64,000 bases of DNA, taken from the NCBI GenBank assembly GCA_015179045.1, contig WHUZ01000004.1:1798001-1862000 (forward strand), read 5' to 3'. The translations under genes and the position numbers were made by a program. This DNA comes from Kalaharituber pfeilii (taxonomy: Eukaryota > Ascomycota > Pezizomycetes > Pezizales > Pezizaceae). The notes under the pieces are model-generated. The model did not search any database and was not told the DNA's origin. It was given only the letters and a program-made list of their open reading frames with translations. Positions 35,839-63,671 of the stretch are shown here, piece after piece (the stretch's first letter is position 1; each line of letters opens with the position of its first letter).

Positions 35839-35908
35839 CCCTGCCATCGCGAACAGCTGCAAGCGGGGATACGTGATATAATTTAAAAAAAGAAAAAAAA
35901 AAAAAAGG
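35839..35908 (+). mobile_element. Type-B hairpin-tail micro-insertion
   Basis: About 50 bp beginning CCCTGCCATCGCGAAC, with GCGGGG closing the stem, then an A-rich tail. Flanked by AACATATG at 35831-35838 and 35912-35919 (extended flanks CCTAACATATG and CCAAACATATG differ by one base). Short target-site duplication plus poly-A marks retrotransposition. No coding capacity. Confidence 0.8.
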
Positions 35909-36881
35909 CCAAACATATGGAGAAAGACTGAATGTGTGTAAGGCGAGGTGCAATTTGACGAAAACAAATTATTTGGAGACACGGCTTTGTACGTTTCGAG
36001 CCTTCCTGATCTAGTTCTCAGCTTCCCCGCTCCTTCGAATGGTACGGACTACATGTAGTAACCCCGAAAGTTGTTATTTCCGCACCAAAGCCGAGTGTGC
36101 CAAGGCCGAATACGCCAAGGCCGGTGACTACAAACGAATTCAAATTTATGAATGAGAACGGTAGGCAGAAAATAGTCCAATATGAAGTTTCAAGTGTTCT
36201 GGTGCCCAGACTATGTCCAATATGAAGCAAGGCCGATTCATTACTAAATTTACAGGCTCAATGAAACTTGGTAGTAGTACTAGTATCATCAATGCTTGAT
36301 ATTAGCACAATCAACGGCCGTGGATTGCCGCGGATACACGTCCCATAGCCTAAAGTCCTCTTGTCCAGCTGTATCAGGGCAACTTGATTGGCATCGAGTT
36401 GAAAAGGGCTTGAGACATATACCAGCGAAGGTGGGGCGATAGAAAGTACGAGTATATCGCGATTGATTGGTCCACGAGAAGTTTTGATGGTGAATAGCGC
36501 GTACCCCGGCCATTGATTGGTTTTGGTATAGCTATTAGGAGGTAGGCAGATAATTGCACCAAATGAAAGATTCTGCTTGTCAGCAGAATTAGAGGGAAAC
36601 GGCAGATGTTACGATCGCAGGGTTCGGTACTTACAATTCAACATGACGCAAACTGGATGCCTTGCGAACTTGCATATGCATAATTGAGAAGAACTTACTT
36701 GTTTTCATACGTATGCCTTGACTATCTTAACATTTTGAATCTCACAAAAAGCTCCGTTAGGCACCTGCAACTCCATCGAGACACATCCGCGCGGCAGCGT
36801 TTCGGTGTAGGTACTTTTAATGATTGTCCTCAGAAAACTAGACATTCAAGATGGTGAGAGGGTGTACACGATGCAGAACTA

Positions 36882-36964
36882 GCTAGTTTTAGAAGTATTC
36901 GGACACCTGACTGATCAATACTATGCACATATTAGTCAGGCGTCCGAATACTTTTGAGACTGGC
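36882..36964. mobile_element. Tc1/mariner-type MITE, 83 bp
   Basis: Terminal inverted repeats of about 31 bp: the left starts GCTAGTTTTAGAAGTATTCG, and the right arm read from the other strand starts GCCAGTCTCAAAAGTATTCG. Both continue GACxCCTGACT. Flanked by TA at 36880-36881 and 36965-36966, the classic Tc1/mariner target duplication. The middle is only about 20 bp, so the element is little more than a hairpin and non-autonomous. Confidence 0.85.
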
Positions 36965-37264
36965 TACATAGTAAGATCCAGGGCCTCGGGCCAAGGCTGG
37001 GGTGGCGTCGATCAAAAGTGGGACCATATTATCAGGGTGATCCTTGTAATGGTAGACTGGAGCCCTGTGTTACGGTTTCTACGATGATGTAGTAAATATG
37101 AGGGTGTAACTTAGGACAACGCTTGATGCTTGACCTTCGAGAGGCCAGCTCTTGCTGGCCCTTCTTATAGCCAACCCTACGTGCCTTCTGTGTATTGTAA
37201 TTGCTATCAAATATCTATGCTAGCTTAACAGATCTCCGAAAGCTTCGGCAATCACATAACTCCA

Positions 37265-37326
37265 CCTCTCCATAGCCTCACAGGCGGCACGCGAGTAATG
37301 ATATATATATATATATAAAAAAAAAA
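37265..37326 (+). mobile_element. Type-A hairpin-tail micro-insertion
   Basis: A 62-bp insertion: CCTCTCCATAGCCTCAC, AGGCGGCACGCGAG, TAATGATAT, then an AT/A tract. Bounded by a perfect 15-bp duplication AATCACATAACTCCA at 37250-37264 and 37327-37341. The body is only the hairpin and its A-rich tail. Confidence 0.9.
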
Positions 37327-39097
37327 AATCACATAACTCCATCCGTAGCTATCTCCATAACTCCGGCCTTGACTGTTTCTCCGCAAACTCCGGTCCATGG
37401 CTGAGGCACTGTCTCACCGCTCTGACCATGCTGGCATTTCTTGTGATACACATCTGTGCCCAACCCATCTTTCATTGCCAGACTGTAGCTACCGGTTGAT
37501 CAGGCCGAATTGTCACTAGCAGCTTTACAGGTCAATATGGATGGATATCCCCTTCGTGGGTAGACCCTGACACCCTGTAGATATGCAGTATGTAGTCTCG
37601 TCCGGGAGTGTTATGGTAAAATGTTGCATTCTATATCCAGTTGTTGGTGCGAATTCGTTTTTGTAAGGATGCATGCTGGGGACAAGAAGGTTCGGCTAGA
37701 TGCTCTTGACTTTTCATTCGTTGATTGGACGCGTATGCTTATCGTTGCCTTAGACCGGGCCGGTCAAGTTATCAGGCTGTGGGTCACGGCTGGATATAAC
37801 ACTAGGATTGGAGTGCAAACTCTTTCCCGCACGGGCCGGTTTTTGTAACAGAAAGTCTGCGATGTGTGATAGATTGTATTCAGGTTCGGGATCAGACGTA
37901 TCTTCTCCACGGAATAGTGCTTATGGGAGAATTTTCTTCTAGGTTTCCAAACGTAACGGAAGTACTGTTCGGGTACGATTGTGCAGGAGTGGAGAGCTAG
38001 TATGTGCAATCGGTAAACAATCTTATACTTTAATTGGCCACTTGCCTACGCACAGAGGTGTTACCATCAGCTAGTTCCGCGGAATCATGAGTGTACGAAC
38101 GTTGCGGAGCTGACTTGGGTACATTCAGATAAATATACGACTTGTTCTACGTCATATTGTTTTGGTGGTAATTATTGCTTCGTGGACTCGGTGATTCGGT
38201 TGCGACATGGTGGCGGCTGGTCGGACGTGCTTAGAGGTGACAAAGCGGGCCGGGGCGCATTGTACTTCTCTACTGCAATCCCTGGGATAGGGAGCACCGG
38301 CAGATCGGGAATGTGGATGCGGGACCACGAACGATACCGATATTTCTGCTTTCGTTGATTTGAGGGACAGAAATAGTACTTATTTTTTGTAGGAGGTCAG
38401 TGAGGGCTTGGATGCGAGGTGCATGGAGAGAGCAAGGCTTTGGAATTGTTTGCTTTGGGCTTTGGAATGAGGAGGTGAGATTACATGTTTCGGTTCGGGG
38501 CTCCGCCGTTGTGGCAAGGGGTGAAGCCAAGGCGCGCATTTGACCGCATAGCATCATGGTCACAGTATGAGAACGCACAGTTAACGACAGCTCAAACATC
38601 ATGATCTAGTACGTTACAACTGATTTTTGAAGCAGCAAGTCACGATATATGGTAGAGATACTTATATCCAAAAGGAAGTGCGTATGATATGCGTAGCAGG
38701 ACACTGCATGTGACTGCCATGGGCCTTGGCATTGACTTGGCGTTTGACTTTGGCGTTTCTCTGGCTCTACCGTATAAGCTGGGATGTATCCCCTTGTTCT
38801 TCTATCTAGGAGGAGAAGGTGGAGGAGATAGCCTGTGCCAGGACATGCGGTAACTTCAATGTAAAACATATCTATCAGTTAGCTATTTGGGTAACGGGGT
38901 CTGCACTGTGAAAGATCTATTTTCCTCTTGGCTCTCTACTATACTGCAAAATGCACTACCTAGCATGGCCCTGATCCTAATGACCGGGACTACTGTACTA
39001 CTGCACTATGATGAGCCTGGTACTCGCACTGTAAGACGCCCACTGCTGCCTTCGATGGACCGGAGCAGTTGGAACTGGCGAAACGAGCGTACAGTCT

Positions 39098-40737: not shown

Positions 40738-41463
40738 TACTGTCTGTGGCGCAAATCTAGCGACTCGTGTGTCGCAAAACCACCCATTTTTTCCCAAACT
40801 ACTCTGACTTTCGACCACGGCTTGTATTAATATTCTACAAGTTGGAAGTTATTAACTTAATCAATTTCATCTGCAATCTTAATGAGAGCTGTCTACGAAA
40901 GTACATAGCTCTATGAAAGCTTCTAAAGTATATGGGCAACACGACATGCTGATTTGCATGGATCCCGGCAGTGACCATAGCATTGAGGGTAGGTGGTGAG
41001 AGAGATCCCTCAGTGATATCTGAAAACCTTTGCTAAATCCCATTTTCAAAAGTGAGGCCAAGGCTAGCTGAGCCTCTTGGTGTACTTATCTCAAAAGATC
41101 TCACAAAATCGATTAGGAGGCAATAATTTGCGTTCAGTTGAAAAGGTTGAAAATGAGGGAACTTTAATGTAGTCCAACTGAGCTGTATAGGCGAAGGGAA
41201 TAGAACAAAAATAAGGCAACCGAAGATTCTTCTGAGCGACGCAACCAAGGTTCAGAAATAATGACAACAAGTTGTTGAGATGCAGACCATAAAAAAGAAA
41301 GATACAAAAGCAACTAAAAATGTCGAGGAGAAGAGAAGCGGGCGAACGTAACAGCACATGTCGTCGAGACTGCACATATCACATCGAGGAGACCGCGGAT
41401 CGGACGACCGGTATCATTTAGCCATGCCTTTTCAATCGAAATATGCTTTCATTGCGGCGAACT

Positions 41464-41534
41464 TTTATTTTTTTAATTTTTTTTTTTTGTCGTTCACATA
41501 ACCCCGCATACAAGCTACAAGCCTATGGCAGGAA
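41464..41534 (-). mobile_element. Type-B hairpin-tail micro-insertion
   Basis: On the minus strand it reads TTCCTGCCATAGGCTTG, TAGCTTGTATGCGGGG, TTATGTGAACGAC, then A-rich. Flanked by a perfect 13-bp duplication ATTGCGGCGAACT at 41451-41463 and 41535-41547. 71 bp including the tail. Confidence 0.9.
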
Positions 41535-41689
41535 ATTGCGGCGAACTGCTCGCAGGGTGCAGACGAAAGTTTTTGTTATCAAAGTGAGAATAGTGGGTTC
41601 CATGCCTTGAATAGCTGTGTGTGGGGAGAAGGTTTAACTACAGGTAGGAATCCATTTCACCCCTCGCCCCTCCCTTCAGAATTCACATT

Positions 41690-42060
41690 TCCCGACATAG
41701 CAATCTCTAGTCACCCGATATCCTCCCCTCACGATCCTCCCAACGGGGCATAGCACATGAATATTCACATGAACGGTACCAGACTGTAATGCTGACAATC
41801 CTCGTGTCTCTATTGACACGTGCGCAATCTGGCGCCACGTACAAATGAATTGTACGCTGCCTTCTCCAGCCTCCATGGCACTCCACCGTAAGGTGGTTCG
41901 AGTCAGGTACGTATCGACTTTTCCCCCGTCGCAGGTGCATGTTGCTCTATATGTCATCAACAACTTCACTGCTAACGTTGAAATAAACAGCATAAACAGA
42001 CCTGACCAGAAGGAGGGTTGGCTCGAACCCTAATAAGGTTCTAAGGCTCCCCCCTTCTAT
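41690..42060. repeat. Dispersed repeat R, copy 1
   Basis: About 370 bp repeated at 51063-51380 in the same orientation, sharing for example CACTCCACCGTAAGGTGGTT, CTTCACTGCTAACGTTG and AATAAACAGCATAAACAG. On the minus strand both copies end a short reading frame with IERLLxLAxEGG. Family unknown; possibly the 3' part of another retroelement. Confidence 0.75.
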
Positions 42061-42885: not shown

Positions 42886-43631
42886 TTTTCTTTCTTTCTT
42901 TCTTTTTTATTTTTATCAATACTCGCGAGATTAAGGTACATAAGGGATAAAGATCAGAAAATATAACCAGACTAATACTCTGTGAACCAATAAGTAAGTG
43001 AATGTTCATCAGGACTAGACCCGTAATCATTGCGCCGCCCACGCCAACATCTCTCCCCCCTCCCCGCACCATCTGCACTCTGGGCTTCCTTCCATATCAT
43101 ATGTTTCCAGGCCTTCCCACGCTTCTCTGGTCATCTGTGCCGCTCTGCCTGGTGACAGTCGGCCTTCAGCCAAGTCTCTTAGCCCGAATGGCCACCTGAG
43201 AGTCTGTGACTATCAATAACTCCTCGTCTCCTTCTTCGAGTGCTCTTGCTACTGCTATCAGCTCTGCATCATTTACCGTGGCTCTGGCTCCGAGGTAGAA
43301 TGACTTGAAATCCTCCCGCCATAGTCCTGCCCCCGCTCTCCCCATCATTCTGCTCCCATCGGTGTATGCTGGTTTCCATCCCTCGTTTACCTCCCTTTCT
43401 ATCCTCCTCTCCCACTCGTGCCTCTCGGCTCCTTTGTCCAGTGTGTCGAGCACTGCCAGTGGTAGGGGGTCCTTCCAATCTAGGGATCAAAGATTGACTT
43501 GGACATCGCTCTCTTTCATCTTTTATCTGTTATCCGCTATCTTCTATTTGTGGCTTGATTATTTTTCTCCCTTATCTGCTATGTACGTAATATATCGCCA
43601 TAGCCCGTGGGGCGGCATGCGATTACTGATA

Positions 43632-43671
<40 letters not shown>

Positions 43672-44028
43672 TTTTCAGGGATTCAGTCAGGTATATCGTG
43701 TCCTCTTCCTCGCGGTTTACTGTACTCTGGAACCTTAGTGACCTGGCCTCAATCCGTACCTTTTCACCCTCTAGGAATGTCCCAAGTTTGCCAGGCCTTC
43801 CACCACATCCCTCTGTGTGCCCCGTGATCGTTCTCGCTATGGTGTACTGCCATTTCTCGAGCTCCCTCGTCTTCGTCTCTGCGTGGGCATTTCGACGATG
43901 GTCCATCCATGCCTAGCTCTCACACGTGGCTATTGTTCTTGCTATGCTGGTGTATAGTTGTCTCCTCTTGCCGGACCAAACCTCCCCAGTCTGGTTGCTA
44001 CCGCCAATGCTGCCTTTCCTAGCTTTAG
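42886..44028 (-). mobile_element. 5'-truncated LINE copy (ORF2 C-terminal half with RNase H)
   Basis: 1143 bp bounded by a perfect 14-bp duplication TCGGTAATCATAAT at 42872-42885 and 44029-44042. Minus-strand order: RT C-terminal region, LEKWQYTIARTITGH, RNase H with YTDGSRMMGRAGAG, ELIAVARALEEG and LLIVTDSQVAIR, then an internal deletion to ECRWCGE (zinc-knuckle-like, near 43055-43080). A 3' UTR of about 100 bp follows, then CTCGCGAG-TATTGATA and an A/G-rich tail. A second insertion (about 43481-43671) splits it. Tad-like LINEs carry RT plus RNase H. This copy is dead. Confidence 0.88.
43481..43671 (+). mobile_element. Type-A tail insertion with 3' UTR, ending in a T25-A15 tract
   Basis: Splits the RNase H region of the LINE copy at 42886-44028. 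It has about 110 bp of T-rich 3' UTR, then ATCGCCATAGCCCGTG, GGGCGGCATGCGAT and TACTGATAT. The following tract is 25 T (43632-43656) then 15 A (43657-43671). Possible short duplication AGGGAT on both sides; boundary approximate. Confidence 0.65.
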
Positions 44029-44070
44029 TCGGTAATCATAATGGTAGTTGTTGCAACGTTGGCCGGATGA

Positions 44071-44128
44071 TTTTTTTTTTTTTTTTTATATCAATACTCG
44101 CATGCCGCCTGTGAGGCTATGGCGAGGT
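44071..44128 (-). mobile_element. Type-A hairpin-tail micro-insertion
   Basis: 58 bp; minus strand ACCTCGCCATAGCCTCAC, AGGCGGCATGCGAG, TATTGATAT, A17. Perfect 13-bp duplication GTTGGCCGGATGA at 44058-44070 and 44129-44141. Confidence 0.92.
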
Positions 44129-44141
44129 GTTGGCCGGATGA

Positions 44142-46534: not shown

Positions 46535-46536
46535 TA

Positions 46537-46716: not shown

Positions 46717-46718
46717 TA

Positions 46719-47502
46719 TTGCATATGGTGTCAGTGTCTAGGATGTACTTGCGTCGAAGACAACCAATTTTGAACGACTTAAATGCAGTAGTCACTTTTG
46801 CAGTTATAACAGTGTCAGTGTCAAGGCATTATCAGATCATGTCAGCTCAGGTGTATGATACCAACTGCGTTGTGTGTGATGGCCTGCATCCTGCTGTGCT
46901 GCAGAAGAAGCTACAAACGGATAATTGATTGACAATTTGGTCTTTAATAATCGACATTGTCTCATGTTTAGGCACGGCATAAGGTATTTTTATTTCGAAT
47001 TGTCTTGGACGACTAATCCAGGATCATTGGGGGGAGGGGCAGTCTCTACCTCTATGAAGCCCAACAGTTTTCACGAAGATGGCTTATCTCACAAATGAGA
47101 ATCTGTATCTCAAGTACAGTATTTTCTCTATGAAACGAAAAGAAACAGCATACGTTTACCGGTACCCGTCGTCGAGCTTCATGGCTGGGGAGACTCGCCA
47201 GGAAGCTTGAAACAATTTATGCTTGTGCTGCACTGACACTATCTTGGGAAGTTGGCGACCTCGTGATGGTCTGGGACTTTGGAGGAACCATATCGTTCTG
47301 TGATAAGGTAGAACTTGTATCCCCGTTAAAGAGAAAATCTTTTCAATGCAAGCAAACACGCACAGACTCCTGTTCAATGCCATCAATTTTTTTTATTTAG
47401 CAACAAAATGTCTGGTACAATGGTTCCGTAGACTATTCTAGTTAGAAAAGCGCGTCCACCCTAAATTGACGCGTTTTCAGTACTATCAATTGCAGCTAAT
47501 AG
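46719..47502. other. Gene-free spacer
   Basis: No recognisable gene. A 69-codon frame at 46719-46928 and a 76-codon minus frame at 47156-47386 lack domains. Confidence 0.4.
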
Positions 47503-47554
47503 TCCTGCCATAGGGGTTACGTGGTCAAAAAAAAAAATAAAATAAAATAAAAAA
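47503..47554 (+). mobile_element. Type-B micro-insertion lacking the hairpin loop
   Basis: Only TCCTGCCATAGGGGTTACG, TGGTC and an A-rich tail, 52 bp. Flanks TGCAGCTAATAG (47491-47502) and TGCAACTAATAG (47555-47566) are a 12-bp duplication with one mismatch. Compared with the copy at 41464-41534, the bases between CATAGG and GGGTTA are missing. Confidence 0.85.
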
Positions 47555-47654
47555 TGCAACTAATAGATTCTATCCCTTCTTAACTAACACTTCAAATGTA
47601 TAAAATATATATATTTCACCATTATCTTCTAATATAGACATCTCTTTCTCCATT

Positions 47655-48360
47655 TTCATGTATTTGATTTTTCAACTGCCCAAACCTCCACAGCTCCCCC
47701 AAAGATCAGGCCAGACCCTCCTACCCTACCCAGCGTTAAGAAGAGAGACCCACCTGCCTGTGCCAAAGGAAAGACCACCACCTCCAGGGTTACTTCTACT
47801 ACAAAGAGCAAGCCCCTTTTGCCAAATAAGCCAGAACTATGACCTGCGACTTCAGCAATAGTAGTTCATGGGATAGCAGTGACCAAGAGATTGGGGAATG
47901 TTCGGAAGTGGTTGGAGGCAGATAATGAACTGGGTACAAAATCGCTGGGGCTAGATGGCTGTTGAAGCAAGAGAGGGGGGAGGGAAAGATGGCTAGTTCT
48001 GTTGTTGTTTACCTAGAGGGGGCAGGTAGGACTAGTCAAATACTAGAGACTCTACGCATTGGAGGTAAAAAGTACGGATAGGATGCGTATGAGTGGGATA
48101 GGGGAAGGAAAGACAAAGGAAAGCAGGTGGGTAGGGCTGGGGAGAATACAATAGAGACTGATTAAGAACCCATTGTATGTATTATTGTGCTTGGTCCACT
48201 GTCTGTCTGTATTTGTTCATCTGCAGCCACAGTGAAGTCGTGTAGATAGATAATTCGCATGGGTGATCCGGCCTACAATCTGGTATCACAGACCTGCCTC
48301 CGGGTAATAAAGGGGTCCTGCCATAGGCTGAGAGCTTGTATGCGGGTCAACTGAGGGAAT
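47655..48360 (+). mobile_element. ORF1-only LINE-derived element, decayed, type-B tail
   Basis: The plus strand carries a broken LINE ORF1: AIVVHGIAVTKRLG, NVRKWLEADNELG, then VYLEGAGRT and YEWDRG. No ORF2 follows. Instead, about 190 bp later comes CCTGCCTCCGGG, TCCTGCCATAGGCTGAG and TGTATGCGGG (48328-48350), the type-B hairpin, with its poly-A lost. Same layout as 54302-55668. Confidence 0.75.
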
Positions 48361-50133
48361 TTATGTATTATTGTCTTTCTGGAATAAGATTCAGTCACAA
48401 CAATTCGACCAGGTAGGTTTATTCCAGACTAAGGTTTATTATAGTTACCATCACACTTAAGACAGTTAGTTGCTAAATTAAAAACATTGATGGCATTGAA
48501 CAGGAGTCTGTGCGTTTTTTGCTGGCATTGAAAAGGTTTTCTCCTTTGAATCACAATACAAGTCCAGTTAGCTGTAACACTATACCCTCGTGTAAGTCCT
48601 AAATTGTTTCAGAGCTTACTCTAGCGGATATAGCGAACTGTTGGTCATACGAATGGCCTGTCGACAAGGGATGCTCGTATAACGTTGCACACGAGACTAG
48701 GAATTCCAGCTTTACATGGGCTAATTGGGCGAAATATTGGTGGGGCTGGGATAGCCAATCGTAGTGAAGTTCAGCTTTACGCCATGTGTGGCGTGAAGCT
48801 TTGCCGTTTCGGGCGGTTTCCGAATAGGGAAGTCGACTTCAGTGCGAGTACATGCTTCTTTGACTCCTGCTTATCAGGGGTCTTGTGCTGAAATCGTCGA
48901 AGTGACTGTCATAGATGCTCTTCATCAATTTCCCCACCACATTCTGAAGGCGACCACTGACCACAGATTGTGTAAATAATGACGACACCACACAGAATCT
49001 TGCAGCGCTGTACCTAAATTGAAGGTTTGTCCCCTAGCTGACAATTGCGTGCACATGAAATTGGAGTTGCGAACTGGGAGAAATGTCTAGTGTGTGTCGG
49101 AATAAAGTCTTTCTATATGCTTACATTTTACAATCCGATTAGGATATATGTCGGACCCTAGGTTTGACGGTGGGCGGAAAGAAGACGGATTTGATTGCTG
49201 TAGTTCACAAGGTGAAAGTTTGGCTGCTTGCATTCTTCAATCAAGGATTTAGAGACATCTCCAGTGCGAAGTGTTGATTGGAACCTTCCAGGAGAAGTTG
49301 ACCTGTCTTACGAAGAAGGATTACAGTTTGCTTTTATGGAGGCGAGAGAGGAGGGAGGATAATGAGCTCAAGATCGTGTTAAACATTGCTATTTCAGGGT
49401 ATGCTGTATTTTGTATAGTGGGCGATATCTATGTTAGGCAGTGCGGCGTCATATCAATATCCTACTTGGGATAAAATAATACTTTGTACAGGTATTTGCA
49501 CTTGAGCTACTCGCTGGTTCGGAACCAGCGTTCATCCTTTCAGATCACTTTTGCATACTCTCTATTGAACCGGAGCTGACATTTGAGCCTCCGGATGCGT
49601 TTGGACCGCCATCACGGTCTTCTTAGAGAATAGAAGCCAAATAAGGAACTGGGTATATATGGTGTCTTCAAGCATCCCTCAAACTGCTCTTGCTGAGGAT
49701 GGCATACCGCAAAATTCAGTTAATATTTCGCCGGTATCGTCCTTTCAAATAGCTTAAATGGAAACAACACGGGGAATCAGGTTGTCGAATGGATGAAGCA
49801 GAACATTAAGTCTCAATAGCAATAGACGGACTACAGCTTCCAACAACAGTTCCCGCAACACAAATTTTGTCACCCATTCAAACCTTTAGCCCATTATCAG
49901 CCGTACCATCCAAGCCATTTACGCCAATAAACGCAACTGCAAAGAAATGAAAAGCAACAGCAGGAAAGGAAACGAAGAGCGTGAAGGGCAATGAAGAAAG
50001 CGGTCATAAGAAGCTGGATGTTGGTGAAAAAAGCCGAGAGAAGAAGGCTAGAGGGGTTGAACTCTTGAAGGCTCTGAATAATTCGTTGTCTTTGCCAGTA
50101 TTAGTCTCTGATACCCTTGCAACTTATCATTAT
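48361..50133. other. Gene-free spacer
   Basis: No recognisable gene, tail or terminal repeat. A near-perfect palindrome CGCTGGTTCGGAACCAGCG lies near 49511-49529. Confidence 0.4.
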
Positions 50134-50147
50134 AAGGAAGGGCAAAT

Positions 50148-50778
50148 TTTTTGTTTTTTTATATATCATTAATCGTGTGCCGTCTTTGGGGCTATGGTGA
50201 TGTTTAGTTACATGAAAACGTAAACAGGAAAAGGAAAGAAATAAACAGAAAAGGGTGACATTAGACAGAAAGGGTGACATTAGACAGAAAAGGGTGACAT
50301 TAGACAGAAAAGGGTGACATTAGACATAACTCCTGGCGTCGCGTCTAGCGCTCCATCCATTCCAACAATGATCTGATCGGTCCCCGGCATCTCCGTCCTG
50401 CCGTCTGATTTCCCTAACTTGTATTGCCAGTGTCTCAGTCCCTTGCCCCCCAAGAGGCCAGCCAGTGCCCCCACCCCGTGTCCCAGTCTTTGGAGTGGTC
50501 TGTAGGTCATGCCTAATCTGTTTCGTTCCTCCGACCTTCGGGCTCTAGCCTGTTGGCGTATGCCAGTTTCGGTCACCATCTCGTCTTGGTATTGTAAGAA
50601 GGTGCCTATCTTGGCCGCCTTGTCTGCTTCTGTGTTGCCTCGGATGCCTTTGTGTCCTTTCACCCACAGCACTGCCACATCGACGTCCCCTTTCGCCGCC
50701 CGTGCTTCCCAGGACTGCCTGACCGCTTGAGCTGCGCCTTCGTGGGTGGGCCTTCCTTCCGCGATCTTTTGCAGTTTC
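50148..50778 (-). mobile_element. 5'-truncated LINE copy (RNase H) with hairpin tail
   Basis: 631 bp bounded by a perfect 14-bp duplication AAGGAAGGGCAAAT at 50134-50147 and 50779-50792. The minus strand encodes the RNase H end: KIAEGRPTHEGAAQAV, then VLWVKGHKGIRGNTEADKAA (the His and Asp of RNase H), then MTYRPLQRLG. The 3' UTR contains four 20-bp repeats (50246-50327). The tail is a degenerate type-A hairpin (CACCATAGCCCC ... CACACGATTAATGATAT) and poly-A at 50146-50160. Confidence 0.9.
50246..50327. repeat. 20-bp tandem repeat, four copies, in LINE 3' UTR
   Basis: AGAAAAGGGTGACATTAGAC repeated four times, one copy one base short, between the ORF2 stop region and the hairpin tail. Confidence 0.88.
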
Positions 50779-50938
50779 AAGGAAGGGCAAATGAGGGTGG
50801 ACCATCATTCTGCACCTGTTAGAGCAGGTCTTGCGACAACTGAAATGAGACTGGAAGCAGAAATAACTACGCACCTTGAACGAATGGACTCAAACCGGGG
50901 AAGCAGTGCCTTGCCTCACCATTAATCAGGTGTCCCAA

Positions 50939-50994
50939 ACTCGCCATAGCCCTTAGGGCGGCATGCGAGTACTGATATAAAAAAAAATAAAAAA
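50939..50994 (+). mobile_element. Type-A hairpin-tail micro-insertion
   Basis: 56 bp: ACTCGCCATAGCCCTTA, GGGCGGCATGCGAG, TACTGATAT, A-rich. Perfect 11-bp duplication AGGTGTCCCAA at 50928-50938 and 50995-51005. The target resembles a Tc1/mariner end (GGTGTCCCAATACTTCTG at 50996-51013). Confidence 0.92.
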
Positions 50995-51062
50995 AGGTGT
51001 CCCAATACTTCTGAAATGACCAAGTACATAAAGAGCTGACTCTAACCGCAAGGTTTTGATTT

Positions 51063-51380
51063 TTAACGAGGGGGCTCAACAGTGATGCGCGCAATTGTTG
51101 TATTTGTTGTGAGACGATGGCTATCAGGTGCTACGTACAAATGGATTGTACGCAACCTTGGGCGGCCTCGGCGGCGGCGTTCCCGGCACTCCACCGTAAG
51201 GTGGTTGTTGTCCGGTACGTAACGATGTCGCTGCATGTGCCAGGTTGAGGCATGACATGTTGATCTATATGTCATCATTAACTTCACTGCTAACGTTGGA
51301 ATAAACAGCATAAACAGATTTCACCAGAAGGAGGGTTGGCTTGAACCCTAATAGGGCTCTAAGCCTCCCCCTTCTGTAGC
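51063..51380. repeat. Dispersed repeat R, copy 2
   Basis: Second copy of the repeat at 41690-42060, same orientation, with the same CACTCCACCGTAAGGTGGTT and AATAAACAGCATAAACAG blocks. The adjoining minus-strand frame ends IERLLHLATEGGGLEPY. Confidence 0.75.
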
Positions 51381-51661
51381 AAGATGGAGGAGTCTTTCGA
51401 TATGCCCCTTGTCCTCGGGGCATATCGTCCAGTCAAGATCACCGGAATAGTTGATTGTGGCCCCGGCCGGGTGGGGAGTTGTTGGGGAGGAGCTGTGGGG
51501 GCTGGTGGGGGACTGGTGGAGGGACCAGTTCAGAGCTCGTACGCTCATTGTTTTCTGGATTGAATAGGCTCCAGAACCTGATGGAGCCTGAGGAAGCCAT
51601 CTTTGATGAATGAGATGATTACTTGGACCTACGAGTAAGTCCAATGAATCCAACTTGATAT

Positions 51662-51692
<31 letters not shown>

Positions 51693-51877
51693 AGAATCCA
51701 ACAGGCCAGGCCAACCAGGTCATTTACGCAAATTAAAGCGATTTTAGAATTTAACCCAGGTAAATTAGATTTTGATAGTCCTGGATATTTCCACTATTAG
51801 TAATTGACAGTTGCGTATTAGGTATCATCATCGAAGAATTGAGTCCCGTCTGTTGTATTATCTGGAAGGTCCATCAT

Positions 51878-51961
51878 ATCTCGCCATAGTCCCCAGGGCG
51901 GAATGCGAGTAATGATATTAAAAAAAAAAAAAAATTAAAAAAATAAAAATAAAAAAAAAAA
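51878..51961 (+). mobile_element. Type-A hairpin-tail micro-insertion
   Basis: ATCTCGCCATAGTCCCC, AGGGCGGAATGCGAG, TAATGATAT and a long A-rich tail. Flanked by GTCCATCAT at 51869-51877 and 51962-51970. Confidence 0.88.
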
Positions 51962-54301
51962 GTCCATCATCTCTAAAATATTTCGTAGTATATATACTTG
52001 AATATAAAGTGTGATACATACTTGACGAAACTCGTAGACCGCTGCTGTTTAAAATTCTAGATATACGGGAGATTGTACTCATTTAAATACTCAAACAATC
52101 TAGTAAACGCTGGCCTCAATTCACCTGGATAGCTGTGGAGTGATTCATTTAATTGGCTTGAACCTGCCTGAATGGCTTGAACCTGCCTGAATGGCCTGGA
52201 CCGGCCTGAATGGCTGGTCTAGGCGGTTTCAGTCCAATGCAGATCACGGCCTGTTGGATTCATTGACCTTTGTTGCCTGAGTTACTATCCTGGCATATGT
52301 CCTAGCTGGGATAGGTATGGTGGCTTGCGTGGGTGTGATGGCTTGAGGAGGCATAGTCGCGGGCTGTGTATTCGAGGCGGGGTAGTTTGTGTGCGTTGCT
52401 TCCATGAGCCTCGTTCCATTTTGGCCCTGGACGTGGGTCGCGGCGAGGTCATTGTACCTGATGCAGTTTTTACTCCTTCAATATTGATACCTGACGCTGT
52501 AGTTTTGGCTGTAATCAGGTGTTGAACTGGAATGGTGCTATCGGTACTTGTTGCAGTGCTCGACCTGTGCCTTCTATCTGCGAGGCTTATGTTACTATAT
52601 GTGACTCCTTCCATCCTAGTATTTTCCCGTTGAATGGGTTCTAGATCCGGTGTGCTCTCTGGTGGAGAGTTAGCTATAGCTGTACTCGCTATCTTCTGTT
52701 GAGCCCACTTGCTATCCACTACCTTGATATTAGAGTGCTCAACTCCTTCCATCTTCTCCACTGATGCAAGTGTCTGCCTAGGTCCGAACTCCTTCACATC
52801 CTCTGCTATATTTGTAGAGAGTGCTGAGCTGGTAGAGAGTGGTTTGCTGGTAGAATGTGCTGGTGTATTCTCTTGACCCATCTCTTGACCCATCTCTGCA
52901 CTCACTTGGTGAAAACCACCTATCCTTACTATCTCGGCATTTATTTGGTGAAAACCCTCCTCTGTCTTCTTACCCATGTACTCCAGGTGTTCGTCTATAC
53001 CATGAAGGCGGCCTCCTACCTCTCCCAAAGCACCCTTCACTCCATTTAGTGCCCCTCTAATTCTTGTCCCCTATTCCTCAACCAGTCTCTCCCACAACAT
53101 ACTTTGGGCTTTCTCCAGTCTATCCAGAATCCTGTCTTCCATCTCCTGCTCTGCCTCCTTATTGCGTTCCTCTCTTCTCCACTCCCAGTATTTTTCTAAC
53201 ATTGCTCGTGCCCAGCATTTGAGGTCTTCATCCACTTGCCTCTCCTATCTCTCTAAACCATATCTCTTTTTCAGTCCTCCAAGGGTCTCTGCTGCAGAGG
53301 CTCCCATATATTTTGCTGTCTCCAGTTTAATCCTCCCCTGTACAAACTTCGTTTCCCAAGCTCTTGCCTATCTAGCTGCTGCCACGGCGGTTTCTTCATG
53401 TTTGCCTCGTATGTACTGTCATCTAGGTCTGGATTCTATGGCCTATCTGGTGTAGGTGATCTCGTCTATAAGCCTTAGATTCCTTGACTAGACTGGCTAC
53501 CATGCCTCCCTCTTCTACCATTATTGCATTCCATGTCCCAGTCCACTATTTTTTTTTTTTTTTTTTTAAATATCATTACTCGCATGCCACCCTATGGGCT
53601 ATGGCGAGATTAGTTATGTATGAGAATAACGAAAGAAAAGGAAAAAGGAAACGCTTTCCCCGTTACACTACTCTCTTCCCGCCCATTCCAGCATCGCCGC
53701 TAAAGCGTCTCTCTCCCCCTCCTTTGTCTCCGGGGGCTTTCCCACCGCCGCCTGCCCCCCGGGGCCATTTCTGGCTCCATACTCTGCACTCTTTCTATAT
53801 GTGTGTCGCTGTCTTCTCCCGTTCCCCGCACCATCGGCACTCAGGCTCTTGCCTTGTTGGTTCTGAATTTCCAGGCCCTGAGGCCTTTCTCCCCCACATT
53901 GTGGTACAACAAAATGTGGGTAACTTCTTACGCTCCGAAGTAATCGCCAGCGGAGAAGTCAAGTGTACTCGTAAAGGGAGTTTATCATAGGGTTGGGAGG
54001 TAACACTAGCGGATTGACTAGTGTAGTGGTACCCCGAGCATGCGCTTTGTTCCTCGCCCTGGCAGTTAGTACTGTAAGCACTGAATGTGAGTACTTTGTG
54101 CCTATGCCCAAGGCGACGCCTATAGAATGGTATCCCATAGAATGCAATTACGCCCAGCTTCATAGACTAGCGTCAGCCCAAACCTGCTTTTGAGCAGGGT
54201 CAGCCTCTTTGTTCTTTGTTCTTTCCGTATTCTCGTGCCCAGACTATTATTTTCGGCCTTCGCGGCCGGGGTCTTGCACCTCTTGACAGTATCCAGTGCC
54301 C

Positions 54302-55668
54302 TTTTTTTTTTTTTTTTTTTTATTTTCACATAACCCCGCTTGCAGCTGTTCGCCATGGCAGGGTCCCTGGACCGAGGTCCTTATGGCCCGGAGACAGGCA
54401 CCTAAAAACAAACAACAACTCACTATATACACCGACATTCAAAAGGGAATAGAGGAAATAAAACCCATGAGACAACCCGCTATGCCGTCAAGTCCATTTC
54501 CTCCACCTCCCTCCCCTTCCCCTTTCTGTCCACCTTTGAATTTCTATCCCAGTCATACAGGCACGAATCGTACCACTTGCCTGACAACCTTACCTTCGCT
54601 GGTGTTTGGCTATCCGATTCCACCTCCCCCTCCAGGTAGATGACAACCGAGCTAGCCTTCTTTCCCTCCCTCCTCTCTTTCTTCACCAACCATCTTGCCG
54701 CAACAATCTTTCCCATCCATGGGTTCGCATTCTCCATCCAATCTCTTACTTTCCCGAGTTTCTTTGTCACCGCAATTCCATGTACTACGATCGCACGACC
54801 GGATTGCGGGAGTGTCCTTTCCTTTGGGATTGGCTTCGGAGATGGTGCTGGAGATGGTTTCTTGGACATTTTCTGCTTGGGGGACTGGTACTCTGTCCCC
54901 CTTTCACTTTTTTGGACTGGAAAGCAGTGGACTTTGTTCGGCTTTTGGGTGGTGCCACTGGAGGTCGGTCAGAATTGTCCCCTTCCGGGGGTGTGCTTGG
55001 CGGGATGTTCTGGGAGACAACTGCTGCATATGACAGCTTTGGTGGTTTCTCCGGGTCAGTTTGTGATTCCCCTTCCTTTGAGGGTTTCCTCAGGTGCATA
55101 TTGTGTATTTCTGTGCATGCTTCCGTCTCCACCGCTAGTGCAAGAGCAGCAATGACGTGATGCACACTCCTGATTTCACACAGGAACCTGTCTGTTGGTT
55201 CAAAGTTTGGTCTTGTCTTCTGGTCTTTTATGCAAGCATGTATGTGTTCGATGACATCCCCCACGGCATCAAGCATATCGGACATATTGACTCCGCCGAG
55301 CCGATCTCCGATAGACTTGTACAGTGGGGCCTCGAGACGGGTACTCTTGGCCAGAGTTGTTTTGGCACCTACGGGCATGTTTTTTGGTGCTGGGCTGCCC
55401 AATGCCATGAATCTATTGGTCGCATCCATGGTGGGAATGCCAAGAAGTCAGGGATGGTGGTGTGCTGGCAACGGAGTAAGGAGCTGATAATTTCCTCAAA
55501 ACTTAACCCCCAAGGGGGAAACTTGAGGAGTTGGGTTTTTTGGAATAAAATTTAGATCTAAAGACTCAGCGCACTGAGAGCTTTCGATCTATGTAGGTTT
55601 CGCTGGGGGGGACGCTGTGGTTGCGGAGTGGCTTCCGAGCGCTCGTCCTGTCGAAGTGGTTGTCGCTG
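54302..55668 (-). mobile_element. Complete ORF1-only (HAL1-like) retroelement, type-B tail
   Basis: 1367 bp bounded by a perfect 14-bp duplication AGTATCCAGTGCCC at 54288-54301 and 55669-55682. Minus strand: a 239-bp 5' UTR; ORF1 from CACCATGG (start 55429) to 54480; about 120 bp of 3' UTR; hairpin tail CCCTGCCATGGCGAAC ... GCGGGGTTATGTGA; poly-A. No reverse transcriptase. Only one reading-frame break is seen, at a five-base C/G run. Retrotransposition must have used enzymes from elsewhere. Confidence 0.88.
54480..55429 (-). CDS. LINE ORF1-like protein, one-base frame break
   Basis: About 316 residues. It starts MDATNRFMALGSPAPKN, with a helical N-terminal half (DMLDAVGDVIEHIHACIKDQ, VIAALALAVETEA), then KLSYAAVVSQ, a common start of the RNA-binding part in LINE/gag-like ORF1 proteins. 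A Pro/Ser/Lys linker follows. The C-terminal domain has AIVVHGIAVTKKLGKVRDW, AARWLVKKERREGKK, SSVVIYLEGE and VRLSGKWYDSCLYDWDRN, shared with the copies at 47655-48360 and 57259-57926. The frame shifts once at the G5 run 54879-54883. ORF1 proteins bind their RNA for retrotransposition; here the function is inferred from neighbours and similarity between copies. Confidence 0.75.
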
Positions 55669-57258
55669 AGTATCCAGTGCCCGTCTGGGTACCAATGGGT
55701 GGTAATGTAGTGTATACGCTACGTGAGTATAATTCAGATTGAAGATTTGCTTCAAAAGCGGGGAGGAAACTAATAATCACGTGGTCACCTCCCAATCAGG
55801 TTTTCTGCTGAACATGCCAGGAATTGGTGATAAATGCATAAGGTGGTGTTGAGGGAACAGGAGATTCAAATGATACGGGGTACATTTGCACTCCACGTCA
55901 GGGCAGCCATTACTATGCACATTTGAGGTGTACATTCTTACTGACCTCACATAAAGTGGCGGGGAGTATACACAACTGCACATTTGATTGTCAAAGTTAC
56001 GCGTTGGCAGAGCGACTTACTCCCTGCTACTCCCCGCAGGAGGGTACATTTTACTGCCCGCCATAGTAATTTTGAACCATAGTGCCAGCAGCCCCCCTAG
56101 AGTGGCGCCAGCCTTCCCAATCGTTGGAGTGGTCTGTAGCTCAGACCCAGTCAGTTCCTTTCTTCTGCCCAAAGGGCTCTCGCCTCCACGCGCATTCCGG
56201 CCTCCGTGATCCACTCATTCTGGTACGGGAGGAGGACCCCAATTTGGCCGCCCTGTCTGCCTTCTCGTTGCCTTTCATGCCCTTGTATGCCTTGACTCAC
56301 ATCACTGCCACATCCAGCTCCCCCCTTCTGGTCCTATCTTCCCAGGCTGTCCAGACGGGTGTGCTGCTCCTTCAGAGGTTGGGCGGCCTTCAGAAATGGC
56401 TTTCAGCTTCTGGATGGCAACTCTGGAGTCTGTTATCAGCAGAATCTCCTCCTCCCCGGTTTTCAGTGCTTTTGCCATGGCAATTAGCTCAGCGTCGTTC
56501 ACCGTAGCTCTGGTCCCTAGGTAGATTGAGGTCGACTTGTCCTTGGCCTTCCCTAGACCTGCCCCCTATTCTTCCTGCGGTCCTGCTGCCATCGGTGTAG
56601 GTCACCTTCCATCCCTGCTCTTCCTCCTCTTCAATCTTTCTTTCCCATTCGCTTCTTCCTGCTTCAGTGTCCAGTGTGTCGAGGACCGCCAGCGGGATGG
56701 GGTCCTTCTATTCTAAAGAGCCTTTGAGGTATTGGGCGCCCTCCTCCCTCTGAAGTAGCTTCTCGTTTTGGAATCTCCATGGCCTGGCTTGGCCCGGGTT
56801 GCTTTGCTGGCTGTGAAGGAGTGAACCGATTCCAGGTTGGCTAGGCCCTCTACTTCGTCTCTTCGGATGCCCCAAGGAACTCCGTGATGGATTGCGCTAT
56901 TGTGTATTGCCACTTTTCGAGCCCTCTCAGCTTTTGTTCTGTCAGTGCGCCGTTGGTGTAGTTCCTCCATGCTCAACTCCCCCACGTAGTGATCGCTCTG
57001 GCTGTGCCTGTATATAGCTGTCTTCCCTTCTCTAGATCCAGCTAGCCTAGTCTGGAAGCCACCCCCAGGTGGCTTTGCCTAGGCTTAGGTGCTTCTGAAA
57101 ATGTGTGGTGAACTTCAGCTCCCAGTCTCTCTGTAAGCCTACCATCCTGTAGCTCAGTCCTGTGATACCGAAGATGATCATCTCCTTGTCTATCTCGAAT
57201 CCTTCTTGTTGAGCCTCCCTTTCTAGCCGGCGCTGGTGTGCTCTCAGTTCTCTCCTCA

Positions 57259-57926
57259 TGTTGACAGCACCCCTGTTGGCACCACCGCCCCACCAAGCTC
57301 ACCCACGGGACCCACACCAACCTCAGTCCCCGCGCCCACGCCAAAGAAGGGCCGGAACACCAGAACCTCTCACCCCTCTGGCGACACACCCTCCCGCCCC
57401 CCCGTCGGCTCCCCAACCCCCACCCCAGCCAGCCCCCCCGTTGCCACCACCTCAGATTTCGGCACCGTCGTTCACGGAATAGCCCTGCGGGAGGATCTAG
57501 GGAACGTCCGAAAATGGTTGGAGGCAGCGAACAGAGACTTGGGGAAGATTACCGGGATTCGATGGTTGAGAAAGAAGCAGACGCTCGTTGAAGAGGGGAA
57601 ACTGACAAGGTCAGCGGTGATATACTTGGAGAAACCGGCTGAAGCGGGGAGAGTGAGACTGGGAGGAAGATGGCTGAGATAAAGCCAATATGAGTGGGAC
57701 AGAGGACGGAGATAGGCAAACCATGTCACCTCTTGCCTGTAACACACGAACATACACGGGCAGCACTTTGGTTCTGGTTTTAAATTTGGGTTTGGATTGT
57801 ACTACCTACATCACCAACGAGAGTCGTGGGTCCCTACCGAGCGTTCATGACATGTTCTTTCTTTTCCTTTTGATTCTATCGCCATAGCCCTTGGGGCGGC
57901 ATGCGATTAATGATAATAAAAAAAAA
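57259..57926 (+). mobile_element. ORF1-only element with type-A tail, nested in RT
   Basis: 668 bp bounded by a perfect 13-bp duplication AGTTCTCTCCTCA at 57246-57258 and 57927-57939. The plus strand encodes the ORF1 C-terminal half (TVVHGIALREDLGNVRKW, GIRWLRKKQT, SAVIYLEKPAEAGRVRLG) up to a stop near 57682. About 200 bp of 3' UTR, the type-A hairpin (ATCGCCATAGCCCTTG, GGGCGGCATGCGAT) and poly-A follow. No ORF2. It splits the LINE RT exactly inside SLAQLRREL. Confidence 0.9.
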
Positions 57927-58959
57927 AGTTCTCTCCTCAGCTGTGCGAGGCTCTTGTTAGACAGGATGCTGTGAAAGTCGTCAACGTATGTATTAATGAA
58001 GGTTCTCTGGTTGGCGGTAGTGACCACTGGTTTATGGCTGTTAGGAAGAGTGCAGGTGACAATAATAATCCTTGAGGAGTTCTGTCTGTCATCATGGCTG
58101 TCGCGCGCCTCTTACGATCCCAGCTGAGTGTGAACCTTATAGGTTATAGAAAGCTGTCAATGAAGGCTGCGAGGTTCTCATCTTCTCCTTCAGCTAGTGC
58201 TACTATCTTCTTGCATCTTACGAAGTTGAATGCTAATCTGATATTGTCTCCGGCTAGGGCTACCTACTCTCCTCTGCCCATTCGGTTTCTGATCTCCTTT
58301 GGGGTTTGTTGCTTTAGGTCTTCTCCTCTATGTGGCCTACCTCCCAGCTAGCTCTCGTTGAACAGCTTGTTGTGTGCCTGTAGGATGTTCGCTACCACTT
58401 TCTGGCCCAGTTTGGCTATCATGTTGAGAAGGGTTATAAGTCTTCAGCTGCCGACCTCCATCCTATCCCTGCCCTTCTTGAGGATCATTACTGTTTCAGA
58501 GCCTCTTGTGAAGGAATAATCCCCATTTATATAGCCTACCACCCTCTCCCGGAGTCAGGTGATTGGCCGGCCATTGTAGGTCGTTGGCTGAGTCCTATTG
58601 GTTCCATCCTGAGGCCTCTTTGTCTCCTGCTGAGCTGAAACGTCCTATGGATCAGTGCAGTCCTGTCGGTCCACGTCCGTCTTGCTAGCCGTGGGTTCTG
58701 GTAAGGTGTGAGAGCCGTCGGGGTCAGTAGTGTCTGCTGTTGGGTCGTAGTGTGGTGAGGGCCGAGTTGAAGGTGCTTGAATCCGTCTGAAGTTGATGTT
58801 TTTGGGACTTTCTGTCACTGTCGTCGTCGTACCCCGAGTTTGAGCGCTGCCCTCGAGGCCGTCGGGCCGAGGGAGTTCTCCTGGTGTTGTCCGCTCCCTG
58901 GTAGCACGTCTGGTTGTCGAGAAAAGGCTTCGGTCACGTGATGCTCTCGTGGCCCGAGT

Positions 58960-59005
58960 TTTTTTTTTTTTTTTTTTTTTTATCAGTATTCGCGTGCCGC
59001 CCTAG
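58960..59005 (-). mobile_element. Truncated type-A tail micro-insertion with an empty-site paralogue
   Basis: Minus strand CCTAGGGCGGCACGCG, AATACTGATA and an A23 tail. A related sequence at 60205-60245 runs through the same place uninterrupted (CCCGAGAGGTTGTAGAG), so this insertion is only about 26 bp plus the tail. Confidence 0.7.
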
Positions 59006-59489: not shown

Positions 59490-59842
59490 TAGTTGTGTTG
59501 AGGTTCGCCGATCGGCTCGGACCGAATCGTGGCTGTGTATTGGTAGTATGGGTAGATGCGGAACCGTCCAGAAGGTTTTGAGGAGTGGGGTGACATGGAA
59601 AAGAATTGGAAGAGGACGACAGAGAATGGGGAGGAGTACGATGTTCTGGAGTATTTCTTTTCCGGAATCAAGTTCTAGAAGATAGGGGGCGGGGATAGTG
59701 GGGGGGACGGTGAGATGAGGTCATGTGTGTAGAGATTTTCTTTTAGCCTGTCTCCGGGCTATGATATGAGGGCTTGCCCAGGAACCCTGCCATGGCTTAG
59801 CGCTACAAGCGGGGTTACTTGATTTAAAAAAAAAAAAAAAAA
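59490..59842 (+). mobile_element. Element fragment ending in a type-B tail
   Basis: Plus strand: a frame of unknown type (EGFEEWGDMEKNWKR, EYDVLEYFF), then GCCTGTCTCCGGG, CCCTGCCATGGCTTAGC, TACAAGCGGGGTTAC and A17 (59826-59842). The 5' limit is unclear, and no duplication was found. Confidence 0.55.
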
Positions 59843-61360: not shown

Positions 61361-62059
61361 ATATATAACATTTCCATGGGAATAAAGAAAATGATAAACT
61401 CCCATATAAAACAAAAAAGGCAAAAAAAAGTGCATGGGAGTAGTCAACTTACAAAGGAGTAATGTGCGTATTTTAAGGAAAGGGCAGCAATGCGAGGGGC
61501 TATTGAAATGCCCGAACGGCGGGACGGAGTAGTGAGGCAGGATGCGGAGGACGGAGAAGTTGCTGGAGGGACGTCAGAGTACCCGCTGGATGCTGCTGGC
61601 GCGGCGCTAGAGTAGTTGAGTAGTTGCTCGAGCGACTTCCAGAGTGGTGGTACGAGATGCTGCTGCAGTTGCTGGGTGAAGGGTGCAATTGGGAGGCGGT
61701 GGAGGGGGGTACAGTTGAGAGGTGGAGAGAGGGGCGCGAGAACGTGCTGTTGAAGGTGTCGTTGAAAGTGGGGGGGAAGGTGGAATGGAACATTATGTAA
61801 GAAGGTGGTTCAATAGGTGGGGTTTGCGAAATTATCGAACTGACCTATGCCTTGGCTGAAGTGGAATGCTGTCGTTTCTAGTGATGGGGGTGATAAGTGC
61901 CATAGAGGGGTATAGAATTGAGGCCCTGATTCGATTTTCACAAAGAACTGGGGAAGAGGGTATTCCAGCATCTTAAAAGTATATAAGATGGACTGTAATC
62001 CTCTGGTCCATATGATTCAATTCTAGTGCAACAAGGGCAACCAGTTTTTACTATTGGTA

Positions 62060-62061
62060 TT

Positions 62062-62092
<31 letters not shown>
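62060..62092. repeat. TTTA tetranucleotide microsatellite
   Basis: About eight perfect copies of TTTA. Confidence 0.95.
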
Positions 62093-63591
62093 GCTAGGAC
62101 GGGGATTCATAGAGAGGGCGTTAGTAGTGGAAGCGGCATATGTCTCACAACTGGGCGTAATCTGGCGTGAGATTGGTGTAGCGAACAGTCTCTGGCTGAG
62201 TGCCCGTTATACTACCTGTACACTTGATGACTAAAACTGTCTAGTCACTTAGCGGCAGGGCCAGACATGAGAAGCCCGGGATATAATCTTTATGAACAGA
62301 TACGCTACTTAACTGTGGCCTGAACATATATAAATATGCACGCCTCAGGCGTCGTCAGCGGTGGCTGACGAGCAAGAAGACGTTACCCTAAAACCCGGCG
62401 TTAACGTTAATTAGGGCGTACTTACCGGCAGCGCAGTATTATGTTTCTGCACACTCCATGATGCTAGGCTACTGTGGGAGAAAGTGGGGGTACAGTACCA
62501 AAAGGGGAAGTAGGATGATTACCGGTAGAGAGAAGAGGAGAAGAGACAAACGACTTGTAGTGGCTGTATCAACTACTGACCAAGCAATGTGACTGACATT
62601 TTTACCTATTGTTTGAACCGGAATCAATCCGAAATAAAATTGTACACTGTTAATTGAACCTTTTTTATCTATATAAAGTGTCAGGGCGACATATGCGACA
62701 TAGGCGCCTGAGAGGCTGCATAGCGTAGGCAGGCTACATATGCACGGCGATGCGGCGGAAGCTTCTAGCGCATATGCCAACAGAAGCTTCCAGCATGAGA
62801 AACTCAAGTATTTAAAGTCTCAGCATAGACCTGAGTGAGAGACCATCATCAATATACTCTACTCTCTCTCTAGGCTTCGTCCACTAGGCTTAAGCTTCGT
62901 CCTCTGGGCTCTGTCCTTACATAAAGATACTGCAACTACATTTGAAATTAAGTCACCATATGCAAGGCAGAAAGCCTATGCACCCCTGGTAAGCACAGGT
63001 TTACGCACAAGTAGTTCAAAAGTTCCACAGTTTAGCTTACCTTATTCACTCCATCATAGTGGGAATACAGCTTCTCATATTTCGAGAGGTAACCCAATAA
63101 AACATACATTTATCCATTGCTGCATCTAATTTGTCAAAGAAATCTGCATACTGCTTCCCAATCTGTTAAAATAATTAGAATCACAACGAAAACTAAGAGT
63201 AGAGAACTAGAGCAGGTACTCATAGTGTAAATTTACATCAATAAAGAAGTGGAATCCCCAATAATGAGAGAGAAATAATCTGGGTTGTACTAGTATTGAA
63301 TGATTATTATCAGGGGCATGTAAATAGTTGTCAGCAACCTGTAAAAAGCCTTTGACCTTGGCTGCATATTTCCGGGTTACACTGCTCTAGTTATGCTAGT
63401 TGTTAAGCTCTACTATCATATCCAATACGCTGTTCCTTGATGCACCCATAAATGCTTTTCACTGTGCATCAGTAAGTGCATTCTGCTATTCTAAAAGTTG
63501 TCCCCGACAAATTTGCCACCATCCGAAAGATTTAGAAGTGCCCTACATGGGACAACCAAATTGTTCCATGAGCTTGTTGGAAGCATAGCTT

Positions 63592-63671
63592 TTTTATTTT
63601 CTATATGGTTACTCGTATGCCGCCCTCGGGGGTACGACGAAATAATTACATAGGAGGTAAAAGCAAAAATA
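63592..63671 (-). mobile_element. Type-A tail insertion with 3' UTR remnant
   Basis: 80 bp; minus strand has about 30 bp of T-rich 3' UTR, then TTCGTCGTACCCCCGA, GGGCGGCATACGAG, TAACCATAT, A-rich. Perfect 13-bp duplication GGAAGCATAGCTT at 63579-63591 and 63672-63684. Confidence 0.9.

Follow-up and report, generated by a model that had tools for sequence, protein, structure and literature searches.

The genome of the fungus Kalaharituber pfeilii contains very short retroposed insertions that consist of a single hairpin and an A-tail, and their 5′ ends cluster at the 5′ foot of this hairpin. We studied them in a window of 64,000 nucleotides (nt; contig WHUZ01000004.1, positions 1,798,001 to 1,862,000, assembly GCA_015179045.1; coordinates below are those of the window) and in the whole genome to which the window belongs (78.03 Mb in 360 contigs). 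Two hairpins, A and B, are involved. The insertions are A-tailed and flanked by target site duplications (TSDs), and their body is the same 3′ hairpin that also closes much longer elements. In a few longer copies, the start coincides with the foot of another hairpin upstream. Our preferred explanation, to which we give a little less than an even chance, is that RNAs with their 5′ ends at hairpin feet, probably trimmed transcripts, were reverse-transcribed to their end.

An earlier note on this window had listed seven insertions of a hairpin and an A-tail, with perfect duplications of 9 to 15 base pairs (bp). All seven are present and have duplications, but these are perfect in only five, with one mismatch in the other two, and the whole hairpin is kept in six. 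Four belong to family A. They lie at 37265–37326 (+; whole hairpin followed by a TA-rich and then an A tail; 15-bp TSDs, 37250–37264 and 37327–37341, AATCACATAACTCCA), 44071–44128 (−; 13 bp, 44058–44070 and 44129–44141), 50939–50994 (+; 11 bp, 50928–50938 and 50995–51005) and 51878–51961 (+; 9 bp, 51869–51877 and 51962–51970). All of these TSDs are perfect, and script and direct reading agreed, as they did for the family B insertion with a variant hairpin at 41464–41534 (−; 13 bp, perfect, 41451–41463 and 41535–41547). The family B hairpin at 35839–35907 (+) was found by script, and its 12-bp TSDs with one mismatch (35827–35838 and 35908–35919), of which the script reported none, were seen by eye. 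The B-type insertion at 47503–47554 (+; 12-bp TSDs with one mismatch, 47491–47502 and 47555–47566, by eye) has lost the middle of its hairpin. The A-run scan added an insertion that was not among the seven, a tail-only one (TTGATATT plus A-tail) at 51655–51693 (+) with 9-bp TSDs (51646–51654 and 51694–51702), which ends at the 3′ side of hairpin A.

The earlier note had also stated that the gene-rich first 35 kb hold no such insertions, and the scans agree with it: neither the A and B patterns (up to 3 mismatches) nor the A-run scan revealed an A- or B-tailed insertion in positions 1–35000. The only B-pattern match there, at about 14.7 kb, has 3 mismatches and no tail and looks like a chance match. 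The same part contains, at about 15150–15241 (−), an A-tailed stretch of 87 nt that lies between two copies of a 10-bp repeat and has neither hairpin; this may also be due to chance.

The position of the 5′ ends was surveyed without reference to the hairpins. All A-runs on both strands of 308,773 sampled bases (207 runs, with few overlapping loci) were scanned for exact upstream duplications of at least 9 bp. The sample was not random, as 30 loci had been picked by an exact match to the 3′ half of hairpin A and the remaining stretches by position, but neither choice depends on the 5′ end of an insertion. Within 600 nt, 59 TSD-bearing insertions were found. Their lengths were 0–19 nt in seven cases, 20–39 nt in eight, 40–59 nt in 24, 60–79 nt in none and 80–99 nt in three, with the others scattered; shuffled downstream flanks gave 0.45, 0.15, 0.10, 0.10 and 0.05 matches in the same five bins. 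Every one of the 24 insertions in the 40–59 nt peak holds a hairpin, A in 14 and B in 10 (one of them divergent).

A second A-run scan used stricter de-duplication and a reach of 1,400 nt, and hairpins were judged by eye where the script assigned no family. Duplications were detected at 70 of the 201 runs, comprising 38 insertions of at most 57 nt and 32 longer ones. Among the 38 short insertions, 28 begin at a hairpin foot (the hairpin being shortened in L013 and divergent in L004-1706). The other ten are 5–28 nt long and end inside or at the 3′ side of hairpin A; two of them, a 5-nt one in TA-rich sequence and an 8-nt one (L017), are uncertain. L011 was a 25-nt insertion in the 600-nt scan, and the longer match was taken in the 1,400-nt scan. 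The longer A-tailed copies have 5′ ends spread along the element, as is usual for 5′-truncated copies of long interspersed nuclear elements (LINEs), and the short class lacks this spread. At the density of the longer copies, about 0.16 ends would be expected in the 7-nt bin at the foot (an estimate based on 30 longer ends, where the list from the 1,400-nt scan gives 32), compared with the 28 observed. The earlier note had argued that random 5′ truncation of a LINE would not give a shared 5′ end and had proposed plotting the 5′ ends of copies with duplications. In the sampled loci this plot has a sharp peak at the hairpin foot and not the smear that would have spoken against a discrete unit.

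The 5′ ends were also measured from the hairpins themselves, with scripted figures kept unchanged and by-eye corrections left out of the counts. For hairpin B, the duplication ends −2 to +2 nt from the foot in 28 of 44 unique copies (16 at +1, six at +2, four at 0, one at −1 and one at −2; the script tolerated −3 to +6). Fifteen of the remaining copies were scored with LINE-like upstream sequence and one as other. Since 13 of the 44 had been chosen for belonging to the GTCA type and eight came from the listed GTTA places, the proportion of 28 to 15 should not be read as representative of the genome. By eye, L041-5914, counted as LINE-like, is a foot copy, and L012+2982, scored as other, is cut by the locus end, its whole site being L069. 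Five of the six copies at +2 carry a base other than the G of the LINE; one, L003, is a nested copy. For hairpin A, 94 unique copies included 16 at the foot, eight inside the hairpin, four at +7 to +40, five at +41 to +130 and 61 without a duplication within 130 nt. Among these, the foot position of L005 is doubtful, and on inspection by eye L076, which the script placed inside, and perhaps L010, which it placed at +19, also belong at the foot. A looser TSD finder, also used for some window copies, gives far matches that are partly chance (12.1 per 76 in the control, 0.4 within 40 nt). The ends thus cluster within 3–4 nt of the 5′ foot for A and within about 2 nt for B, and the boundary of family A is less clean. 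All three sub-lineages of A (TAATGA, TATTGA and TACTGA) yield foot copies, and several lineages of both hairpins are involved.

Further upstream feet are used as well. The starts of three B copies (L040, L061 and L063) lie 35, 38 or 39 nt ahead of CCC, where hairpin 3 has its 5′ foot. Two A copies (L002 and L004) begin 2–3 nt before an upstream CCCGC..GCGGG hairpin, which stands in front of 10 A copies. At about 2351 (+) of L004, a longer A-tailed copy lies inside an older hairpin copy, and its duplication is thus part of a hairpin.

Both hairpins are abundant and conserved. The 3′ half of A matched 8,893 places in the genome (up to 3 mismatches), compared with one for a reversed-pattern control, and that of B matched 3,269 (up to 1 mismatch), compared with none; both counts take in the long elements. 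The whole B hairpin was matched at 2,146 places, and at 857 when the six LINE-type bases CAGGGR were required in front (a pattern one base shorter at the 3′ end). The remaining 60% is only an upper bound for hairpin-only B copies, because copies with altered upstream bases fall there too. Pairing is kept in 95.1% of cells among 66 distinct cores of A and in 93.8% among 24 cores of B, and in 34–64% when the partner is slid. Two-sided changes were found at three of the nine pairs of A (in 7, 2 and 6 of the 66 cores), and none was found among the 24 cores of B. Both families thus have a conserved 3′ stem-loop like that of elements with the tail of stringent-type LINEs. In the Rfam search (E up to 5, positions 35000–64000), no match came near its gathering score. 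A known RNA or ribozyme was rejected for these positions, since only mir-3613, mir-240 and sR44 matched, all far below their gathering scores; the weak mir-3613 match (27 of 91 bits) overlaps a hairpin copy at 43592 and its tail. On contig 13, exact A matches are absent from 0.24–1.15 Mb among the matches listed, which suggests repeat-rich and gene-rich compartments.

Longer elements with the same tails are found in the window. An open reading frame 1 (ORF1)-like fragment at 57259–57926 (+; TSDs 57246–57258 and 57927–57939; ORF1-like motif seen by eye) ends in hairpin A at 57877–57926, and ORF1-like frames with hairpin B occupy 54302–55668 (−; TSDs 54288–54301 and 55669–55682). Both look half-LINE-like, and their 3′ hairpin is common with RNase H-bearing relatives. 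A longer A-tailed element at 42886–44028 (−), with the 14-bp TSD TCGGTAATCATAAT on both sides, has its hairpin partly deleted, as judged by eye. Hairpin A is attached to LINE-like upstream sequence at 53553–53608 (−), and hairpin B to two further upstream hairpins at 59778–59842 (+). In the sampled loci, RNase H (PF00075) scored above the cut-off in two frames, which precede an A tail in L020 and a B tail in L017. Other A- or B-tailed parents have an ORF1-like protein upstream, with the motif VVHGIALRKDLG; three ORF1-like frames were tested and none had a Pfam match. The A and B tails are therefore common to RNase H-bearing elements, ORF1-like elements and hairpin-only copies. The assignment of the tails to LINEs, by which the insertions have their 3′ sequence in common with a LINE of this genome, was made through the RNase H frames, one each for A and B; the places coding for reverse transcriptase were not linked to either tail. 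LINEs of the Tad1 clade, a candidate for the partner, carry a C-terminal RNase H, and a C-terminal RNase H was found in these same two frames.

The lineages of B differ in their upstream sequence. Among 100 of the 1,027 B copies with the GAACAGCT loop, 54 were of GTCA type, all with G before CCC, and 46 were of GTTA type, with A in 31 and G in 15. On contigs 1–12, 21 of 27 A-GTTA copies were preceded by CAGGGR, compared with 3 of 13 G-GTTA copies with CTG and 6 of 49 GTCA copies; the difference between A-GTTA and GTCA was significant (Fisher P = 1.5e-8). Such a difference fits short RNA templates better than drop-off on a long LINE RNA. Among 15 fetched GTCA copies, the duplication was at the foot in 12 (two at sites already sampled in L012) and at the foot of hairpin 3 in two, while the fifteenth (L070) lacks an A-tail and is enclosed by longer repeats. 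These two copies, with two more hairpins, weaken the idea that GTCA is a hairpin-only lineage without a longer relative. The three-hairpin GTCA unit has 78 exact copies, only one of which has TTTGTTA upstream (one mismatch allowed), a sequence found in several other B elements; its parent may have some other upstream sequence. Where A precedes CCC, the hairpin-only copies agree with their relatives attached to LINE sequence. A cap-derived origin of the G before CCC was ruled out, as the longer copies L061 and L063 of the same lineage also have this G (CAGGGGCCC) and other lineages begin with a templated A.

We infer that the template was a short RNA starting at the hairpin foot. Transcripts of the elements would be degraded or processed from the 5′ side until the folded, probably protein-bound, hairpin halts trimming, and a 5′-to-3′ nuclease would leave an RNA with its 5′ end at the foot. 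The LINE enzyme might then recognise the hairpin as stringent-type LINEs do, copy hairpin and A-tail at the nick and run off the end of the RNA, sometimes with one extra base. Copies ending inside the hairpin could be drop-offs of the reverse transcriptase on the way. The tight position of the B ends and the mostly untemplated bases in front of them (five of six at +2) are consistent with run-off. As the enzyme meets the 3′ side of the hairpin first, stops caused by the fold would be expected there or in the loop. A peak at the 5′ foot, with other 5′ feet used too, is what one expects if the RNA itself began at the foot.

Several other explanations have to be weighed against this one. Ordinary random 5′ truncation accounts for the spread ends of the longer copies, but the excess at the foot refutes it for the peak at the present sample sizes, and we give it next to no chance. 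A somewhat unlikely alternative is that the template was a full-length RNA. The enzyme would grip the 3′ hairpin, lose its grip while copying through it and leave at or inside the hairpin, and be processive once past the foot. Insertions that stop within hairpin A or at its 3′ side (10 of the 70; within it in 8 of the 94 A copies) are what such drop-off predicts, and foot copies do arise from all three A sub-lineages. However, the peaks lie at 5′ feet, which are reached after the hairpin has been copied, and at upstream hairpins that need not be the grip of the enzyme; in addition, B lineages with a nearly equal hairpin differ strongly in their share with LINE sequence upstream. For B, a hairpin upstream might have caused the stop, but this does not hold generally, because the A copies mostly have a pyrimidine-rich stretch just upstream (by eye) and, of the two A copies folded, a stem was predicted there in L004 and none in L002.

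It is also conceivable, although distinctly improbable, that some lineages, such as the GTCA type of B, are miniature short interspersed nuclear elements (SINEs), i.e. transcription units of their own, about 41 nt long, or about 77 nt where there are three hairpins, mobilised by a LINE. This would agree with the uniform G of the GTCA copies against the frequent A of the GTTA type, with the foot and hairpin-3 TSDs of the fetched GTCA copies and with the near absence of TTTGTTA upstream of the three-hairpin unit. The TSDs and the A-rich or simple tail are those of a SINE. However, 41 nt is too short for an internal promoter of the transfer RNA (tRNA) type; the insertions begin at the hairpin foot, which leaves no RNA polymerase III head with an internal promoter. 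The Rfam result and the match between hairpin-only copies with A before CCC and their LINE-attached relatives also speak against such units. The earlier note had offered two options, a discrete transcript class or a stop of reverse transcription at the hairpin foot. Both stand, but unequally, since the peaks at 5′ feet and the B lineages favour the short template. A discrete transcript class as such is too simple, given several lineages, longer relatives and a minority of A ends inside or slightly beyond the hairpin. A further reading, possible but on balance doubtful, is that in some lineages the hairpin-only copies maintain themselves as a retroposon class, with a body of about 41 nt that may be the smallest on record, and spread from short RNAs whose 5′ end arises at the foot. 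RNA folding, and not a promoter, would set its left end.

Some observations weigh against trimmed RNA templates. The A ends inside the hairpin (8 of 94) and at +7 to +40 (4 of 94) make the boundary sharp but not absolute, and the 61 A copies without a TSD within 130 nt are uninformative. The upstream-foot class comprises only five copies, in one of which (L002) the TSD is just 9 bp, and L006 begins inside the 3′ arm of the upstream CCCGC..GCGGG hairpin and not at its foot. Hairpin 2, a small one that separates hairpins 1 and 3, was not seen to have its foot at the start of any of the 44 unique B copies. A stop of the reverse transcriptase might also account for the extra base at the junction, and the binding of the hairpin by the enzyme is assumed by analogy with other stringent LINEs.

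Other repeats were also noticed in the window. Inverted repeats of 60 bp, 92% complementary and 1,046 nt apart, lie at 47354–48519 and resemble the termini of a DNA transposon or foldback element. A hairpin resembling a miniature inverted-repeat transposable element (36-nt arms, 83% complementary, 15-nt loop) lies at 36880–36966. Another dispersed repeat, with CACTCCACCGTAAGGTGG, is present at 41877–42053 and 51185–51371 in blocks of 41 and 116 nt with 88–91% identity, and a tandem array at 50228–50329, with a unit of about 20 nt (AAAAGGGTGACATTAGACAG), adjoins a copy of hairpin A. The gene-rich part encodes a NAN1/UTP17-like protein of 719 amino acids, whose best named matches are from Tirmania nivea and Terfezia claveryi (51% identity) and Peziza echinospora (43%); judged by this one protein, the host resembles a cup fungus of the Pezizaceae.

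A 3′ stem-loop or tail common to autonomous and non-autonomous elements is described, in PMC3747384 and PMC5135761, for UnaL2/UnaSINE1, SART1 and ZfL2 and, in fungi, for Mg-SINE/MgL and SINE2-1_BG/Tad1-24_BG; the stem-loop shared by stringent LINEs and SINEs is also reported there for fungal Tad1. Similarly, a 3′ hairpin is common to long and short elements here. The fungal SINEs tabulated there are given as tRNA-derived, whereas here the insertion is hairpin and tail alone, with its 5′ end at the foot. As in the half-LINEs HAL1 (described in PMC5322556) and HaTad1 (named in a table of PMC3747384, its "Ha" presumably meaning "half"), some parents have an ORF1-like frame just upstream of the 3′ hairpin, but the micro-insertions have no open reading frame. 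With 5′-truncated LINE copies, which according to PMC3747384 usually begin at various positions and measure 100 to 1,000 bp, they have the 3′ end, A-tail and TSDs in common; unlike those, they have a length peak at about 41 nt. The ends of mammalian tailless retropseudogenes and 3′-truncated copies of small nuclear RNAs also follow RNA secondary structure, as stated in PMC5322556 and PMC4476161. In those copies, as described there, it is the 3′ end that is set, in single-stranded regions and probably by internal priming, and there is no A-tail, whereas here the 5′ end is set, at hairpin feet, and an A-tail is present. Among the papers listed in literature searches, judged by title and opening of the abstract and with most subscription papers outside the coverage, none describes hairpin-only insertions that end at the foot of the hairpin. 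Non-autonomous elements with LINE tails are known; the minimal hairpin-bounded form seems to be new.

To our knowledge, there is no settled account of what determines the 5′ end of LINE-type insertions. In a genome that has about 12,000 hairpin-tailed places and 5′ ends tied to hairpin feet, it becomes testable whether the end of the template RNA or the enzyme makes the boundary. If short hairpin RNAs indeed served as templates, the minimum size for a mobile retroposon would fall to about 40 nt, and RNA decay would be a source of mobile elements.

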